From contig DUVP01000027.1 in the NCBI GenBank assembly GCA_012840975.1, positions 1 through 64,000 on the forward strand: a stretch of DNA of 64,000 nt, read 5' to 3'. This document shows, piece after piece, positions 35,383 through 52,433 of this stretch. The translations under genes and the position numbers were made by a program. Every line of letters starts with the position of its first letter. The stretch's first letter is position 1. This DNA comes from Mogibacterium sp. Its GTDB lineage: Bacteria; Bacillota; Clostridia; Peptostreptococcales; Anaerovoracaceae. The notes below the pieces were generated by a model. That model did no database searches. It was not told the origin of the DNA and was given only the letters and a program-made list of their open reading frames with translations.

Positions 35383-35814
35383 CTACAAATCATACAGGTC
35401 AAGCTTTTTAATGAATTCTTCGTTTTCCATCATATTCTCACCCTCAGGATCTGATAGAACTTCTGCACTCCATATTTCTATTTTGTCTAAAGCACCCTTT
35501 GTAACGAGATTCTTATTGATACCTGCATATTCTCTTAGATGTTGAGGGATCAGTATTCTCCCCTGAGCATCAAGATTGCATTCTTCAGTATTTGAAAAGA
35601 ATGCTCGAATAAATTTTCGTACGTCCCTGTCGGACTGAGGGAGTTTTCTTATCTTCTCAACCAGAACTCCATAATCTTCCAGTGAATATATATATAGACA
35701 ACGATCAAAACCTCTTGTAAGCATGCAGCGACCGCCGAGAAGATCCCTATATCTTGCAGGGATAATCATTCGGTTCTTGCTATCTATTGTGTTTTGATAA
35801 GTGCCCGTAAACAT
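35383..35814 (-). CDS. mraZ: transcriptional regulator MraZ
   Basis: 143 residues with two AbrB/SpoVT-type MraZ half-domains: MFTGTYQNTIDSKNRMIIPARYRDLL at the N-terminus begins the first (DSKNRMIIP), and NLDAQGRILIPQHLREYAGI marks the second DxxGR motif. Family knowledge: MraZ forms a ring-shaped oligomer that binds short direct repeats upstream of its own gene and regulates the dcw operon. Three such repeats are visible over its promoter at 35857-35881. The ribosome-binding site (GAGAG) is weak. Confidence 0.96.
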   Translation of the reverse strand: MFTGTYQNTIDSKNRMIIPARYRDLLGGRCMLTRGFDRCLYIYSLEDYGVLVEKIRKLPQSDRDVRKFIRAFFSNTEECNLDAQGRILIPQHLREYAGINKNLVTKGALDKIEIWSAEVLSDPEGENMMENEEFIKKLDLYDL

Positions 35815-44997: not shown

Positions 44998-45711
44998 GTG
45001 ACTGCAGAAAATAAGATTAATTCTGAATTGCATCTAATGGACATAAATTCATATAGAGTTGTTTCTGAACAATTTTCTATACTTGGCGATACCAATCGAT
45101 TACGTATTTTTACACTATTATGCCATAGAGAGGAATGTGTTAGTGAGCTGGCGAAAATAATGTCTATGTCTATTTCCGCTACATCAAGCAGCTTGAAAAT
45201 GTTGAAATCTGCCTCTCTTATAACCAGCCGACGCGATGGAAAGGAAATTTATTATAGAATTAACGACTCCGTTAAGTGCCAGTTATTGCACTACACTATT
45301 GAAAAAATGATGAACATTATATGTCCCGGTCAGTTTGATCTTGACTCGCAGTTTTTTCATGAAAATATTAATCCGTTAAATAAAGAGCAGCGATGTTTTA
45401 TAAAAAAAATACATGATGATATTCTTAAAAATCTCGATAAGCGTATTTCTATAAATGATTTGGCAACAAAATATTCTATCAGTCCTTCTGCTTTAAAATA
45501 TCAATTTAAAAAAATGTACGGAAAATCTATCGCTGCTCATATAAAAGAACACCGCATGGAAAAATCAGAAGAACTATTAAGAAAAAGTAATTTAACAATC
45601 TATCAAATCGCAATCAGCGTTGGTTATTCAAGCCCAAGTAAATTCAGCAGCTCTTTTAAAGAAACATACGGGATTTTGCCAAATGAATATAGAAAGATTC
45701 ACCAAATGTAG
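44998..45711 (+). CDS. ArsR-AraC fusion transcriptional regulator
   Basis: 237 residues. Residues about 20-95 form an ArsR/SmtB winged helix (FSILGDTNRLRIFTLLCHRE, ECVSELAKIMSMSISATSS, then wing DGKEIYYRI). Residues about 130-235 form a complete AraC-type double helix-turn-helix (ISINDLATKYSISPSALKY, KEHRMEKSEELLRKSN, TIYQIAISVGYSSPSKFSSS). Such a fusion is unusual. Candidate metal ligands are Cys in ECVSEL and His/Cys near LLHYTIEKMMNIICP. The start is GTG 44998 with AGGAG 7 nt upstream; an overlapping ATG-TGA occurs at 44996. It is divergent from the metal pump it likely controls and ends 11 bp from the convergent polC stop. Confidence 0.88.
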   Translation: MTAENKINSELHLMDINSYRVVSEQFSILGDTNRLRIFTLLCHREECVSELAKIMSMSISATSSSLKMLKSASLITSRRDGKEIYYRINDSVKCQLLHYTIEKMMNIICPGQFDLDSQFFHENINPLNKEQRCFIKKIHDDILKNLDKRISINDLATKYSISPSALKYQFKKMYGKSIAAHIKEHRMEKSEELLRKSNLTIYQIAISVGYSSPSKFSSSFKETYGILPNEYRKIHQM

Positions 45712-45722
45712 CTTCCTATATT

Positions 45723-48700
45723 TTACATGTCAAATATACTTATCTGTGCTGACTCCGGCAGATCAAGAAATAAGCCGTGTCTTTTAAGGTCTTCTATGTT
45801 CGAGCTTGAAAGCTTTGTTCTTGATTTTACATCATCTATGGTACTGAATTCTCTCTCATTAAATGCATAAACCAGAGATTCTGCTGCTGTATTTCCTATA
45901 CCTGTTATTGCATTGAACGGAAGCATTAACTTTCCGCCATGTATTGTGAATCGGGTTGGACTCGCTTTTGATAGAACAGGCTCTTCAAATTCATATCCTC
46001 TCGATAACATTTCATACATTACCTCATATACGGTAAGAGCTTCCTTTTGCCTCGCTGTAGCAGCTTTGTCAAGTTCTATAATTTCATCCATTTTTCGCTC
46101 AACTTCAGATATTCCCTTTCCGATTGTTTCGGCATCGAAATTATCCACTTTGGAAGAAAACCAAGCTGCATAAAATGCTTCCGGATGATTTACTTTGAAC
46201 CAGGCCATTCTGATTGACATCATAACATACGCTGCTGCATGGGCTCTTGGGAACATGTATTTTAACGTTTCACAAGATTTTATATACCAGTCCGGCACTC
46301 CATGACTTTTCATCAGGCTTATATGTTCACCTGAGAGTGCCTTATTCTTTCGAACTATTTCCATTATTTTGAATGCATCGCTGTTATTTAAGCCTTTGGC
46401 TATAAGATAATTCATAATGTCATCACGACAGGATATTACTTCGCTCATCGTAGCAACTTTATTTCTTATTAAATCCTGTGCATTATTAGTCCAGACGTCA
46501 GTTCCATGAGAAAATCCTGACATCTTTATCAGTGCTGAAACTGTTGTAGGTTTAATATCATCAAGCATGGCTCTGGTAAAACTTGTGCCGAATTCCGGTA
46601 TGGCATAGGTTCCATGAACAAATCTATAGTCAGGGTTCTTGATTTTAAGTTCCTCAGTGGATGTAAATATGCTCAAAGTTCTTTTATCATCCAAAGGAAT
46701 AGACATCGGATCCACGCCGGTCATTAACTGTAAATATCTGATAAGCTCAGGAACATCGTGTCCTAGAACATCAAGTTTAAGGAGATTACCATCCAGTTTA
46801 TGGTAATCAAAATGTGTTGTTATTACCTCTGCATCCTTTTTATTTGCCGGTCTCTGTATTGGACAAAACTCGTATATCTCATGATCATCGGGTAATACTA
46901 TAATACCTCCCGGATGCTGACCTGTTGTTCTCTTTACACCTGTACATCCTTTAACAAGATAGTCAATATCACCATTCCCTATTTCAATATTATTATCTTC
47001 AAGGTAGTTTTTTACATATCCGAAAGCTGTTTTGTCAGCAATCGTAGCCACCGTTCCGGCCTTGTATACATTTTTCTCTCCAAAAATCTCTCCGACATAT
47101 TTGTGTGCTATCGGCTGATACTCCCCTGCAAAATTAAGATCTATATCGGGTTCTTTATCTCCTTTGAATCCAAGAAAAGTTGCAAAAGGTATATTTACTC
47201 CATCCTTATTCATCTTAGTACCGCACTTCGGACATGCTTTATCCGGCATATCGTAACCAGTATCATATCTATCCAATTCCTCTGACTTTTCATAGTGTTT
47301 GCATTTCGGGCAGATATAATGAGGAGGCAAAGGATTTACTTCTGTTATTCCGGCCATTGTTGCAGCAAATGAAGATCCGACAGATCCTCTTGATCCTACA
47401 AGATAACCGTCATCATTGGATTTTTGTACAAGCATCTGTGCAGCTATATACATTACCGCATAACCATTTCCGATTATTGAATTAAGTTCGACTTCCAGCC
47501 TTTCTCTGATATCTTCAGGCAACTCATCACCGTATATTGACTTTGCCCTGGCATAGCAACTCTCTCTCAGCCTCTCCTCAGCGCCTTCTATCTTAGGTGG
47601 AAACTTTCCTTTTGGAATAGGCTGAACTTCTTCAATCATATCGGCAATCTTATTTGTATTCGTTATTACGACCTCTTCGGCTCTTGATCCAAGATACCTG
47701 AATTCATCAAGCATCTCATCCGTTGTTCTTAGATACATTGAATCGGATGCTGTATCCTTATATCCAATTCCCGCCATAATGATATTTCTGTATATTGAAG
47801 CTTCCCTGGTAGGATAGTGTGAATCTGTCGTAGCAACAGTTAACTTTCCTATTCTGTCTCCTACCTCAATAACCTTCTTATTGAAAGCAATAATCTCTTC
47901 CACTTTGCTCACAATACCGTCATCAATCATAAATCTGTTGTTCCTCAGTGGCTGTATCTCAAGATAATCATAGTAAGAGGCTATTCTGTCAATCTCATAG
48001 TCAGGCTCTCGCCTCATGATTGCCTGATAAACTTCTCCAGCCTCGCATGCACTCCCAACGATAAGTCCTTCCCTATGCTTTTCAAGTATTGAACGTGGAA
48101 TCCTGGGCCTTTTGTAGAAATAATCTATATGCGAAAAACTAACTAATTTATACAGGTTCTTGAGTCCAATCTGATTTTTTGCAAGCAAAATTATATGATA
48201 GGTTTTATTTTTCTTAATGTCTATAGTTCCATCTTCTAATATAGCATTCTCATCCGGATACAAATATCCTTCAAGTCCGTATATCACTTTAATGTTTTTC
48301 CCCTGCTTTGCTAAATTCTCCGCAGTTTTTGCAGCATCAGGAAACCCTTGAACAACCCCATGATCTGTTATTGCAACTGCCGGCTGATTCCATTGTGCAG
48401 CAGTCTTTACAATATCCTCTACCTCGTTAAAACCGTCATTATCACTCATCTTTGAATGACAATGAAGCTCCACTCTCTTCATCCCCGGATATGTGTCTTC
48501 TTTTATTTCTTCTTTTATTTTCTTAATTGAAATTGCCATAAGGCAATTCTCGCGATCAAAGGTATCGTATTCAACCCTGCCAAGAACTCTTATTGAATCA
48601 CCGCTGAATACATTTTCCTCTATCTCTTTCATTTTTTTATTGGAAATGAAAGCTTTAATCATGAATGTTCTGATTTTGTCAGCTATCCTCATCATCAGGA

Positions 48701-49208
48701 GAACTTTGCCGCTTTTTATCGGTCTGGATTCGATTCTGAATACCTCTCCTTCTATTGCCGTCTTATTTTTGCTTCCGATAAACTCTGCTGCATCATCATA
48801 TGAAACCGACTTATTTTTGAAGTCATTACCCATCAAAATGAGCTCGCCGTCATTATTTGTAAATACAGGTTCTTCTTTTTTTGTTCTTCGATATTCCCTA
48901 TGGCTATACTGATTTTCATCCTGATCTTTTTTATCTTCACCTTCTTCAATCTTTGGTATAGGTATACCCGTATAAATGTAGTTAATACGAATCTTATATG
49001 TACATCCCAGTTTATCTCTTATTCTTTCCTTCATCAGAAGACTTAAACCCGGGGGCATATCAAAATTGAGCTTAGTGTCAACAGTAAGCACTAAGCTCTT
49101 ACGTGCATATGAGAATCCTACAATCTCTATATCTATATCAGAAACATTTTTTCCGGTAGCGTTAACAATCTCCTCTTGCGTTAGTATTACCGGTGGTATT
49201 TTAATCAT
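45723..49208 (-). CDS. polC: DNA polymerase III alpha subunit, PolC type, lacking the exonuclease domain
   Basis: 1161 residues; canonical PolC is about 1430. Parts: short N-terminal domain and OB fold (1-240), PHP domain beginning RVELHCHSKMSDNDG (about 246), with AITDHG and IYGLEGYL, continuing directly into TYHIILLAKNQIGLKNL at about 336, where the nested DnaQ-like exonuclease (with a DxETTG motif) should lie but is missing. The polymerase core is intact: zinc cysteines 633, 636, 659, 662, GSRGSVGSSFAATM, and catalytic PDIDLNFAGEYQ (about 687). The C-terminal helix-hairpin-helix is also present. The reading frame is unbroken. It starts 3 bp after ispG. Confidence 0.95.
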   Translation of the reverse strand: MIKIPPVILTQEEIVNATGKNVSDIDIEIVGFSYARKSLVLTVDTKLNFDMPPGLSLLMKERIRDKLGCTYKIRINYIYTGIPIPKIEEGEDKKDQDENQYSHREYRRTKKEEPVFTNNDGELILMGNDFKNKSVSYDDAAEFIGSKNKTAIEGEVFRIESRPIKSGKVLLMMRIADKIRTFMIKAFISNKKMKEIEENVFSGDSIRVLGRVEYDTFDRENCLMAISIKKIKEEIKEDTYPGMKRVELHCHSKMSDNDGFNEVEDIVKTAAQWNQPAVAITDHGVVQGFPDAAKTAENLAKQGKNIKVIYGLEGYLYPDENAILEDGTIDIKKNKTYHIILLAKNQIGLKNLYKLVSFSHIDYFYKRPRIPRSILEKHREGLIVGSACEAGEVYQAIMRREPDYEIDRIASYYDYLEIQPLRNNRFMIDDGIVSKVEEIIAFNKKVIEVGDRIGKLTVATTDSHYPTREASIYRNIIMAGIGYKDTASDSMYLRTTDEMLDEFRYLGSRAEEVVITNTNKIADMIEEVQPIPKGKFPPKIEGAEERLRESCYARAKSIYGDELPEDIRERLEVELNSIIGNGYAVMYIAAQMLVQKSNDDGYLVGSRGSVGSSFAATMAGITEVNPLPPHYICPKCKHYEKSEELDRYDTGYDMPDKACPKCGTKMNKDGVNIPFATFLGFKGDKEPDIDLNFAGEYQPIAHKYVGEIFGEKNVYKAGTVATIADKTAFGYVKNYLEDNNIEIGNGDIDYLVKGCTGVKRTTGQHPGGIIVLPDDHEIYEFCPIQRPANKKDAEVITTHFDYHKLDGNLLKLDVLGHDVPELIRYLQLMTGVDPMSIPLDDKRTLSIFTSTEELKIKNPDYRFVHGTYAIPEFGTSFTRAMLDDIKPTTVSALIKMSGFSHGTDVWTNNAQDLIRNKVATMSEVISCRDDIMNYLIAKGLNNSDAFKIMEIVRKNKALSGEHISLMKSHGVPDWYIKSCETLKYMFPRAHAAAYVMMSIRMAWFKVNHPEAFYAAWFSSKVDNFDAETIGKGISEVERKMDEIIELDKAATARQKEALTVYEVMYEMLSRGYEFEEPVLSKASPTRFTIHGGKLMLPFNAITGIGNTAAESLVYAFNEREFSTIDDVKSRTKLSSSNIEDLKRHGLFLDLPESAQISIFDM

Positions 49209-49211
49209 TTG

Positions 49212-50276
49212 CTATTTATCCTGTTCTATAATTTCTATCAATCTGTCTATCAATTTATCTTCCGGAACTTTTTCCAAAATCTTACCATGCGAGAATATCA
49301 AACCTTCACCGCGTCCGCCGGCTATACCGTAATCCGCTTCTCTACTCTCCCCGGGACCGTTTACAACACATCCCATTACGGCTACTTTAATAGGTTTTAA
49401 TCCTTGTCTCTGTCTTTCATATGCAAGTTTCTCAAGTCTGTCTTCAGCCTCATTTGCAAGAGATATAAGATCTATTTCCGTTCTTCCGCAAGTCGGACAT
49501 GAAACGACATCTATAAATTTCTGCTTTAATCCGACTGTCTCCAATATTTTTCTTGCAAACAATACCTCTTCAATAGGATTATCAGTCAAAGAAACTCTTA
49601 TTGTATCTCCCACTCCGTCCAGAAGAAGCGATCCAATACCTATGGCAGATTTAATTTTGCCGCTTCTCGGAGTACCTGACTCAGTTATCCCTATATGAAT
49701 CGGATACTCTGTCATTTTCTTTAGGAGCATATGTGCATCGTAGTTCATCTTTACATTTGACGATTTAATCGACACGACAATCTGATCATAATCCATATCC
49801 TCAATAATCTTAAGCGTATTCACTCCGCTTTCAGCAAGAGCGGCAGCGGTGACACCTCCGTATTTTGCAATCAAACCCTTATTAAGGGAACCCGAGTTGA
49901 CACCAACCCTTATAGGTATAGATCTTTCTCTTGCCTTTTCAACTACCTTCCTGACATTCTCGATACTTCCTATGTTTCCGGGATTGATTCTTATCTTATC
50001 CGCACCTTCTTCCATAGCAGCTATCGCCAATCTGTAATCAAAATGGATATCAGCTACGAGAGGTATCTTTACCTGCTTCCTGGCGATACCAAATGACTCT
50101 GCCGCTGCAATATCCGGAATTGCACATCTTATGATTTCACAACCGCAATCAGCCAGTTCAGATATCTGATTCACCAATGCTTTTGTGTCCCTGGTATCTA
50201 CATTTGTCATCGACTGAATCGATACCGGAGCTCCTCCACCTATTATAACTCCTCCACAATTGACACTTTTAGTCAT
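49212..50276 (-). CDS. ispG: 4-hydroxy-3-methylbut-2-en-1-yl diphosphate synthase IspG
   Basis: [4Fe-4S] enzyme of the MEP isoprenoid pathway (GcpE), 354 residues. TIM-barrel part opens with VNCGGVIIGGGAPVSIQSMT and includes KIRINPGNIG and RVGVNSGSLNKG. The C-terminal cluster domain contains CPTCGRTEIDL and GCVVNGPGES with the three cysteines. The second dedicated MEP gene in the window, dxr, is two genes upstream; ispD, ispE, ispF and ispH are not here. Stop 3 bp from the polC start; 16 bp after rseP. Confidence 0.97.
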   Translation of the reverse strand: MTKSVNCGGVIIGGGAPVSIQSMTNVDTRDTKALVNQISELADCGCEIIRCAIPDIAAAESFGIARKQVKIPLVADIHFDYRLAIAAMEEGADKIRINPGNIGSIENVRKVVEKARERSIPIRVGVNSGSLNKGLIAKYGGVTAAALAESGVNTLKIIEDMDYDQIVVSIKSSNVKMNYDAHMLLKKMTEYPIHIGITESGTPRSGKIKSAIGIGSLLLDGVGDTIRVSLTDNPIEEVLFARKILETVGLKQKFIDVVSCPTCGRTEIDLISLANEAEDRLEKLAYERQRQGLKPIKVAVMGCVVNGPGESREADYGIAGGRGEGLIFSHGKILEKVPEDKLIDRLIEIIEQDK

Positions 50277-50292
50277 CAGAAATCTCCTTATA

Positions 50293-51294
50293 TCAAAACA
50301 AATTCATTACATCGTTAATAGTTACAAATATAAATATTGAGAATAATATAACCATTCCTACCATGGTCGCCTTATATTCCATCTCATCTCCTATTCGTCC
50401 GCCTGTTATGATTTTTAGAAAAATAAAAAATATTTTTCCGCCGTCAAGACCCGGTATTGGAATGATATTGAAAAATGCTAAGTTCAAGCTTACCAGAGCG
50501 AGAAGTATAAGATAAGCCTCTATTCCGTGAGATTGAGTTTGTCCTACAATTTTAACAAGACCGACAGGTCCTGAAACATCGTCTTTTTGTATCCCTCTGG
50601 TTAATATGTCCTGAAAGGCTTTAATCATCATCTTTGTAAGATTCCATGTCGATTTAACACCGTATTTCACAGACAATAGCGGCTTTTTTTCAATACTTGT
50701 TACTATACCTATAACATACCTCTTATTTTCTTTGTCATATTCGGGCTTTAATGTAAAGGTTCTGCTGCCTTCATCATTCCTGACAACAATTTTCATATCT
50801 CCTTCTTGATATCCGGAAATTTTTTCAGTTACTCCTTCCCAGCTCGAGACTCTTATTCCATCAATTTCTACAATCCTGTCTCCGGCTCTTATTCCGGCCT
50901 CATAAGCAGGAGTGTTGTTTTCTACTGAAGCGATTTTGTTAGTAGGAACACCGCTAATTATCGCAACAACCGTCATTACGACAATCGCAATAAATACATT
51001 CATCGTAATGCCTGCTAGAAGAATTGCAATTTTCTGCAAAGGGCTTTTATTATTATATGCCCTTTCATCATCACTCATCTCTTCTTCCCCTTCAAGGGCA
51101 CAGAAACCGCCGAGGGGCAAAAGTCTTAACGAATACTGTGTCTCACCTTTCTTCCTTTTTAAGAGAAGAGGTCCCATTCCTACAGAGAATTCGTTTACTT
51201 TGACACCGACGAGTTTCGCCACTATCATATGTCCCAACTCGTGCGGAATTATAAGCACGAGCAGCATTATTACAAACAATATCGCAGTTTTCAA
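50293..51294 (-). CDS. rseP: site-2 intramembrane metalloprotease RseP/RasP
   Basis: 333 residues. The zinc motif HELGH is at residues 18-22 in the first transmembrane helix; a PDZ domain (about 115-195: VENNTPAYEAGIRAGDRIVEI) follows; the second active-site motif is in IPGLDGGKIFF near the C-terminus. Family knowledge: it cleaves anti-sigma factors and other membrane proteins within the bilayer. It overlaps dxr by 4 bp, the usual cdsA-dxr-rseP order in Firmicutes. Confidence 0.95.
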   Translation of the reverse strand: MKTAILFVIMLLVLIIPHELGHMIVAKLVGVKVNEFSVGMGPLLLKRKKGETQYSLRLLPLGGFCALEGEEEMSDDERAYNNKSPLQKIAILLAGITMNVFIAIVVMTVVAIISGVPTNKIASVENNTPAYEAGIRAGDRIVEIDGIRVSSWEGVTEKISGYQEGDMKIVVRNDEGSRTFTLKPEYDKENKRYVIGIVTSIEKKPLLSVKYGVKSTWNLTKMMIKAFQDILTRGIQKDDVSGPVGLVKIVGQTQSHGIEAYLILLALVSLNLAFFNIIPIPGLDGGKIFFIFLKIITGGRIGDEMEYKATMVGMVILFSIFIFVTINDVMNLF

Positions 51295-52433
51295 TAGATA
51301 ATCTCCTTTATCATTCTTCTTGATTCCATATCAAGATTAAGAATTTCTTCAACCGTCGTTGGATTTGACGGATTATGTTCATTCATTACACGTTGTATGT
51401 TCTTAGGAATGTCCAAAAATCCGATTTCTCCTTTTAGAAACATTGCTACAAGCTCTTCATTGGCTCCGTTCATAACGACAGGATAGCTTCCTCCCGCTTC
51501 CAAAGCGTTGTATGCGATATCTATACAGACAAATACTTCTCTGTCCGGCTTTTCAAAAATAAGTTTTGATCCGGTCGTAAAAAAATCTAAACTTTCCCCC
51601 GAATATGGGAGTCTGTGCGGATAGTTCAGAGCCAGGCTGATTGGAATTCTCATGTCAGGCAGACCTAACTGGGCAATTATAGACGTATCTTCAAACTCCA
51701 CCATAGAATGAATGATACTTTGAGGATGGACAACAATGTCTATCATGTTGCCCGGCACATCAAACAACCATCTTGCCTCAATAACCTCAAGTCCCTTGTT
51801 CATCATTGTTGCAGAATCGATAGTAATCTTGCTTCCCATACTCCAATTAGGATGATTCAATGCTTCTGCGACACTGACCTTTTGCAGATCCTGAATTGAA
51901 GCTCCCCTAAAAGGCCCACCCGAAGCGGTTAAAATCAATCTTTTAATATTTCTTTCTTTATTTCCCTCCAGACATTGAAATATTGCACTATGTTCACTAT
52001 CGACAGGAAGAATTTGAACTCCTTTTTCTCTTGCAAGTTCTGTTACAAGATTACCGCCTGCAACTAAAGTCTCCTTATTGGCAAGCGCAATATCTTTGCC
52101 GGATTTTATTGCTTCAAATGTCGGTGCCAGTCCGCTTATGCCCATTAGTGCGTTAAGCACTATATCGCATTCTATCTTTGCTATTTGAATCAGGCCTTCT
52201 TCACCGTATAAAATCTCCAGATTACTGAATTCAGCTTTAATTCTGGATGCATCTTCTTCGCTTCCAACACAAACAGCAGATGGCGAAAATTCACGTATCT
52301 GCTCTATAATTTCATCGACTCTGTTTCTACATGTAAGTCCGACTACTTCGAATTTATCTTTATTTTCTCTAATAATATCGAGAGCCTGGCATCCTATAGA
52401 GCCGGTGCTCCCGAGTATAAGTACTTTTTTCAT
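51291..52433 (-). CDS. dxr: 1-deoxy-D-xylulose-5-phosphate reductoisomerase
   Basis: NADPH-dependent enzyme of the MEP pathway (380 residues, normal). N-terminal cofactor loop LGSTGSIGCQALDI, metal-binding region PVDSEHSAIFQCLEG, the ILTASGGPFRG loop, and NHPNWSMGSKITIDSATMM. Cytosolic. 84 bp after cdsA and overlapping rseP by 4 bp. Confidence 0.97.
   Translation of the reverse strand: MKKVLILGSTGSIGCQALDIIRENKDKFEVVGLTCRNRVDEIIEQIREFSPSAVCVGSEEDASRIKAEFSNLEILYGEEGLIQIAKIECDIVLNALMGISGLAPTFEAIKSGKDIALANKETLVAGGNLVTELAREKGVQILPVDSEHSAIFQCLEGNKERNIKRLILTASGGPFRGASIQDLQKVSVAEALNHPNWSMGSKITIDSATMMNKGLEVIEARWLFDVPGNMIDIVVHPQSIIHSMVEFEDTSIIAQLGLPDMRIPISLALNYPHRLPYSGESLDFFTTGSKLIFEKPDREVFVCIDIAYNALEAGGSYPVVMNGANEELVAMFLKGEIGFLDIPKNIQRVMNEHNPSNPTTVEEILNLDMESRRMIKEIIY

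Follow-up and report, generated by a model that had tools for sequence, protein, structure and literature searches.

A Mogibacterium PolC without the inserted DnaQ-like exonuclease and its PHP domain as candidate proofreader

A DnaQ-like exonuclease (Exo) inserted in the PHP domain is called the 'hallmark' of PolC in passages of Timinskas et al. (PMC3919608). The polC gene in the window (the whole 64,000-nucleotide stretch of Mogibacterium sp. DNA analyzed here) appeared to encode no such insert, and a first-pass annotation proposed that proofreading is supplied by a separate DnaQ-like protein or by the PHP domain, or that the replicase is of low fidelity. The locus raises the questions of whether the Exo is truly absent and, if so, how the errors of this polymerase would be corrected.

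Domain organization and the exonuclease junction

The window protein is a PolC ortholog of 1161 residues encoded at 45723-49208 on the minus strand, with a frame that is open throughout. It scores 1412.9 bits against the NCBIfam PolC model NF001688 (cut-off 873) and 1319 bits against TIGR01405 (cut-off 1043.45). Its domains follow the order OB-PHP-Pol-HhH-clamp motif, as in the canonical PolCs of B. subtilis and Geobacillus kaustophilus but without the Exo. The polymerase aspartates D688, D690 and D813 and all nine PHP metal ligands are present. The features of the locus are as follows.

48963..49208, minus strand: small N-terminal α/β domain, residues 1-82, from the secondary structure and pLDDT of the model; this region is shorter than usual in PolC
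48501..48845, minus strand: OB domain N-terminal to PHP, as in PolC, residues 122-236 (weak Pfam tRNA_anti-codon match at 152-215, below cut-off; OB-fold structural matches to the model at 119-233)
48264..48488, minus strand: first half of PHP, residues 241-315, with ligands H249, H251, D258, H283 and E313 (Pfam PHP at 247-416; ligand columns)
48198..48263, minus strand: 22-residue loop, residues 316-337, at the Exo site of other PolCs (alignments, loop list, model pLDDT 90-94)
47739..48197, minus strand: second half of PHP, residues 338-490 (approximate boundary), with ligands H338, C388, D462 and H464 (Pfam; ligand columns)
45969..47618, minus strand: palm, thumb and fingers, residues 531-1080 (approximate boundaries), with D688, D690 and D813 (Pfam DNA_pol3_alpha and finger)
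45759..45968, minus strand: helix-hairpin-helix region, residues 1081-1150 (Pfam HHH_6 at 1082-1150)
45732..45749, minus strand: AQISIF at the C-terminus (sequence; relatives have QLSLF-like ends at the same place)
49212..52433, minus strand: ispG, rseP and dxr, directly upstream of polC (Pfam GcpE, Peptidase_M50 with PDZ, and DXP reductoisomerase)

The AQISIF sequence is presumably the C-terminal β-clamp-binding motif. A gene at 44998-45711, convergent with polC, encodes a single protein in which ArsR-type and AraC-type DNA-binding domains are fused.

The DnaQ-like Exo is cleanly missing from the window PolC, and the 22-residue loop stands in its place. NF001688 matches the window genome in two pieces (profile positions 187-412 and 607-1445), and the gap between them identifies the Exo columns as the missing part. 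Pfam RNase_T finds nothing in the window PolC, and neither a DxETTG nor an HxAxxD motif occurs in it; the sole D-x-E-T match, DAET at residue 1025, is due to chance. The AlphaFold model has a mean pLDDT of 86.8, stays at 90-94 across the junction and falls below 50 only at residues 83-107, which would leave a hidden exonuclease domain no room. An Exo hidden elsewhere in the protein was ruled out, given that there is no RNase_T match, no DEDDh motif and no disordered stretch of more than 25 residues in the model. An Exo encoded by an adjacent gene was likewise ruled out, as the genome's single RNase_T protein lies on contig C1 and polC on C19. The first-pass annotation had joined the PHP halves at about residues 317-340 (48189-48260), close to the loop found here, and its description of an intact frame, conserved polymerase residues and no DxETTG-type motif is borne out.

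An assembly or binning artefact at the junction is so improbable as to be negligible. The window genome, 80.7% complete, is available as a draft in 37 contigs. Against an artefact, the reading frame is continuous across the junction, the same 22-residue loop is kept in close relatives, and one Exo-less PolC of the family has exactly the sequence of the PolC from the isolate Alterileibacterium massiliense. Moreover, an assembly gap is unlikely because the Exo is likewise absent from 25 further family PolCs that were read as sequence.

The N-terminus of the window PolC and of its close kin is shortened as well, in agreement with the first-pass annotation for the former: 248 residues precede the first PHP ligand in the window PolC, compared with approximately 300-390 in most relatives. 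Because the N-terminus is likewise short in eight members of L003-L013, a clade of the family that bears the Exo, the N-terminal shortening and the Exo loss are separate reductions. A role in clamp-loader contact has been proposed for the N-terminal region in passages of PMC3919608.

Distribution and probable repeated loss of the exonuclease

Exo-less PolCs are already in print. Passages of Timinskas et al. give them as 6% of PolCs, confined to Clostridia and Negativicutes bar one Thermotogae copy (PMC3919608). Among open-licence papers, this was the only one found to discuss loss of the PolC Exo, and its passages concerned hold no analysis of repeated loss, decay intermediates or DnaQ-fold-free genomes. 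The window PolC fits the variant described there in that it has no Exo insert, has relatives in Clostridia and belongs to a pair of PolC and a DnaE1-type polymerase; it differs in its shortened N-terminus. The window PolC is a real variant that is ordinary for its lineage, and the surprise expected in the first-pass annotation is not supported. The evidence added here, drawn from sequence comparisons, suggests that the variant arises repeatedly and leaves the PHP domain as the main candidate proofreader.

Absence of the Exo is common in the phylum. A sample of 149 genomes contained 113 with a PolC over the cut-off, namely the window genome, 100 read as sequence and 12 unread. The Exo is absent from 61 and present in 39 of the 100 read besides the window, at odds with the first-pass statement that PolC 'normally' carries it. 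The published 6% and these 61 of 100 come from samples that are not alike, the former covering all bacteria known in 2013 and the latter one phylum sampled evenly (PMC3919608, in part). In the order of the window, the profile match shows the Exo in 81 of the 83 genomes that lie outside the family; in the remaining two, it breaks off at a contig end. Within the family, the Exo is carried by 12 of 85 genomes over the cut-off; among the 37 family PolCs read as sequence, 25 lack and 12 have it. Named Exo-less PolCs (42 of 80, a biased sample fetched with a partly Exo-less query) include those of Moorella thermoacetica, Desulfosporosinus fructosivorans, Selenomonas ruminis, Cuneatibacter, Epulopiscium and Alterileibacterium massiliense. 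The nearest named relatives of the window PolC are from Mogibacterium MAGs (Anaerovoracaceae, Clostridia). Matches were also obtained in 917 of 50,697 phage records, all with less than 60% identity. One genome holds, in addition to an intact PolC elsewhere, another PolC-like stretch (G301:C1:906287-910324) that is interrupted by 16 in-frame stops.

In all, 251 PolCs were gathered, of which four were too truncated to score, leaving 247; several trees, among them those of the rate analysis, use 233 of the 247 after removal of near-copies at 95%. Exo presence changes approximately 14 times on the PolC tree (247 PolCs, junction columns excluded), and at least eight changes are forced by well-supported branches. 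The loop that replaces the insert of 196-215 residues is 10 to 37 residues long in most Exo-less PolCs (one of 82). Many Exo-less loops of the family end like the post-Exo linker of Exo-bearing kin, xIDYKSKxT(N/Y)H, and the window loop ends in TIDIKKNKTYH. This resemblance suggests that the loop end is likely a scar of Exo deletion.

Decay of the Exo can be followed in family f22. A live Exo is found in L242 and L241 (G136/G178). In L247 (G244), all five DEDDh residues are lost and read AAGGE, and in L225 (G215) the Exo is deleted, leaving a 37-residue loop. Outside the insert, L225 and L247 share 91.6% identity, and the PHP site is intact in the members read. As judged from their sequences, these nearly sister PolCs are a snapshot of domain decay. 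The full DEDDh set is kept in 117 of 118 Exo-bearing PolCs.

The direction of change was also considered. The DnaE-rooted tree places the Exo-less L230 and L240 deepest, but with an outgroup branch of 3.38 changes per column and many open forks, an Exo-less ancestral PolC is at most a tentative reading. Within the order of the window, loss is the better reading because nearly all genomes outside the family (81 of 83) bear the Exo, compared with 12 of 85 inside it. On the family tree alone, counted by eye, one loss with two regains (three changes) costs no more than repeated losses (approximately four), and the Exo may have been regained by recombination within the family. The Exo domains of 13 Exo-bearing family rows group together, with a weak support of 44, and Exo distances track those of the PolC core (Spearman 0.68 against core 500-1100, 0.59 against PHP and 0.62 against 690-1100; internal controls 0.69-0.74). 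This grouping and correlation favor vertical inheritance and repeated loss.

The PHP site as candidate proofreader

In passages of the published literature, the 'active' PHP motif is given as HHDHEH[C/H]DH, which comprises nine metal ligands. All nine are kept in the window PolC, as in 129 of 129 Exo-less PolCs. The other 118 of the 247 PolCs carry an Exo: 110 combine a DEDDh Exo with nine PHP ligands, four a DEDDh Exo with a PHP site that has one D>N change, three a DEDDh Exo with a wrecked PHP site, and one a dead Exo with nine PHP ligands. None of the 247 PolCs is without both sites. Fisher's test on this joint table gives p 0.005 with relatives treated as independent, and the seven altered PHP sites derive from about three lineages. 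The PHP site is also intact in 111 of the 118 Exo-bearing PolCs, so a comparison on independent pairs has no power (zero to one informative of eight). The three wrecked PHP sites are found in L250, L251 and L252 (G316, G342 and G303; family f80, in the order of the window), in which an intact DEDDh Exo accompanies the replacement of most PHP ligands. These PolCs are the mirror image of the window PolC, with the Exo kept and the PHP site ruined.

The evolutionary rate of the PHP domain was assessed as the end-branch PHP/core ratio, using branch lengths fitted on one fixed tree, with junction flanks trimmed and L250-L252 dropped. The ratio is 1.48 without the Exo versus 1.88 with it (rank-sum p 6.7e-5); among 16 disjoint clade pairs, the Exo-less side has the lower ratio in 14 (Wilcoxon p 0.008). 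With L250-L252 kept, the ratio is 1.27 versus 1.77. When labels were shuffled over 39 clades, the difference was reached in 5 of 5000 draws for PHP and 657 of 5000 for OB. Part of the signal may be saturation because the Exo-less rows have longer branches. After branch-length correction, the factors without the Exo are x0.86 for PHP (t -2.68) and x1.00 for OB. Significance is not reached by PHP with OB as the yardstick (x0.94, t -0.93), by the first PHP half alone (rank-sum p 0.11), or by near-site or far PHP residues alone after correction (t -1.87 each). One control ratio shows p 0.038 in the opposite direction and is not significant on clade shuffles (246 of 2000). The effect is modest: PHP evolves approximately 14% slower relative to the core where the Exo is absent, a difference that was found after the fact and is gone against one alternative yardstick.

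The literature places the loop next to the PHP site. According to passages of PMC5636811, the Exo insert of PolC sits in a loop adjoining the active site of PHP; the same loop, of 18 residues in Taq DnaE and 29 in M. tuberculosis DnaE, lines a groove to that site. With the Exo insert gone, the 22-residue window loop is similar in size to these DnaE loops, which makes a PHP-proofreading PolC plausible by analogy. The window PolC shares the short loop and the nine ligands with the PHP-proofreading DnaE1 of M. tuberculosis and Thermus; it differs in being a PolC by sequence and domain order, and its PHP activity is predicted. The window model aligns with 3f2b_A at 49% identity over 986 residues in VIA-align, where lower rows are RNase AM, other PHP proteins and tRNA synthetase OB folds. 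3f2b aligns end to end with residues 146-1160 of the window PolC and is described in passages of PMC3919608 as an engineered Geobacillus PolC without the N-terminal domain and Exo, whereas the window PolC is natural. At the position of the window ligand D462, the Geobacillus chain has N, and passages of PMC5636811 report this one-ligand change alongside a lack of PHP exonuclease activity.

Taken together, the reading considered rather likely is that the window PolC is a replicative polymerase whose inserted Exo disappeared in the course of its family's evolution, with a short loop left in its place, and that the PHP domain of the same polypeptide proofreads. The PHP domain would act as a three-metal 3'-5' nuclease of the kind known in M. 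tuberculosis and Thermus DnaE, and the equally intact PHP domain of the DnaE1 partner may serve as a second proofreader. PolC would have started with two proofreaders, either of which was dispensable while the other stayed. The catalytic activity of the window PHP site is predicted from its ligands, which can also be kept for structure alone.

Other nucleases, the DnaE partner and implications

DnaQ-fold proteins are scarce in the Exo-less genomes of the family. The window genome encodes one RNase_T protein, which is KapD-like (110 bits, with the KapD cut-off at 169) and scores 25-29 bits against epsilon models with cut-offs of 71.5-245. This protein lies after two further genes (L001:31-2040), which by eye look like an AbiE-type toxin-antitoxin pair. 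PF00929 has no match in the same-genus genome G082 (99% complete) or in 24 of 30 Exo-less family genomes, including the one-contig G071, two-contig G011 and three-contig G060. Exo status in these 30 was read as sequence in 14 and from a split profile match in one frame in 16. All 10 Exo-bearing family genomes tested were matched by PF00929 through PolC. Outside the family, 35 genomes were searched (34 Exo-less and G244 with its dead Exo); nine have no match (eight of the 34, plus G244), and four of these nine consist of a single contig. The other 26 encode DnaQ-like proteins, often in long frames of DinG size, so DnaQ absence is not a universal rule. Of the options raised in the first-pass annotation, PHP proofreading is the best supported, with nine of nine ligands in all 129 Exo-less PolCs, and a separate DnaQ-like protein is disfavored; the suggested search for a stand-alone DnaQ or epsilon homologue returned the KapD-like protein alone in the window genome, which is 80.7% complete.

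The DnaE of the window genome scores 1311.8 bits against TIGR00594 and has the PHP motif HHDHEHCDH. On the basis of this full motif, a trait of DnaE1 in the literature, the window PolC is predicted to pair with DnaE1 and not DnaE3. DnaE-type polymerases of the phylum have 17-19 residues at the Exo-insert position in 32 of 33 read. Correction of PolC errors in trans, by the PHP domain of this DnaE1 or by an unrelated or unrecognized exonuclease, with the PolC PHP domain only structural, is an unlikely explanation. The full motif of DnaE1, the KapD-like DEDDh protein of the window genome and the DnaQ-like proteins of the 26 non-family genomes are in its favor. Passages of PMC12926913 describe the B. 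subtilis PolC Exo as correcting DnaE3 in trans, which makes the reverse conceivable. Correction in trans does not readily account for the invariant PHP ligands of the Exo-less PolCs or for the somewhat slower PHP evolution once the Exo is gone, and the PF00929 result in 24 of 30 family genomes also speaks against it, although this profile is blind to unrelated nuclease folds.

A low-fidelity or secondary PolC, with DnaE1 replicating most of the genome and mismatch repair covering the rest, is improbable. Passages of Timinskas et al. (PMC3919608) raise DnaE1 as the replicator and PolC as an enzyme for special situations, and their Exo-less PolCs are clostridial. All 17 family genomes tested carry mutS. 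The low-fidelity option of the first-pass annotation may still hold. This explanation is countered by the position of polC in a conserved housekeeping cluster (dxr-rseP-ispG), the clamp motif and the retention of the polymerase aspartates in all 129 Exo-less PolCs. It is also countered by both members of family f31 in the sample (G146, L238, and G186, L239), incomplete MAGs of 97% and 93% completeness in which PolC is Exo-less and no DnaE passes the cut-off. The DnaE absence in these MAGs could reflect missing contigs; DnaE is found in two of two genomes of the sister family of f31, and every bacterial species has a DnaE according to passages of PMC12926913. In the window genome, mutS1 matches in two overlapping frames outside the window (G000:C23:33109-35481 and 35454-35693), which indicates a frameshifted gene or an assembly error.

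Beyond the window PolC and its probable PHP proofreading, a wider proposal is advanced tentatively: that PolC has two interchangeable proofreaders, that many lineages of anaerobic Bacillota repeatedly drop the Exo, that in families like that of the window whole genomes are DnaQ-fold-free and operate a two-polymerase replisome with the PHP domain as the only proofreader, that PHP is held tighter without the Exo, and that the Exo stays where PHP goes, as in L250-L252. The variant also bears on how PolC is defined. According to passages of a 2025 study of the PolC inhibitor ibezapolstat (PMC11963600), PolC was defined by an RNase_T insert in PHP, and 620 of 1158 proteins were kept; such a filter would miss Exo-less PolCs such as that of the window. 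Genome upkeep by PHP has so far been studied mainly in mycobacterial and Thermus DnaE. If PHP alone proofreads, these bacteria would be natural single-site tests of genome upkeep by a PHP nuclease, and the lineages with a dead or deleted Exo beside Exo-bearing sisters are matched pairs for mutation-rate work.
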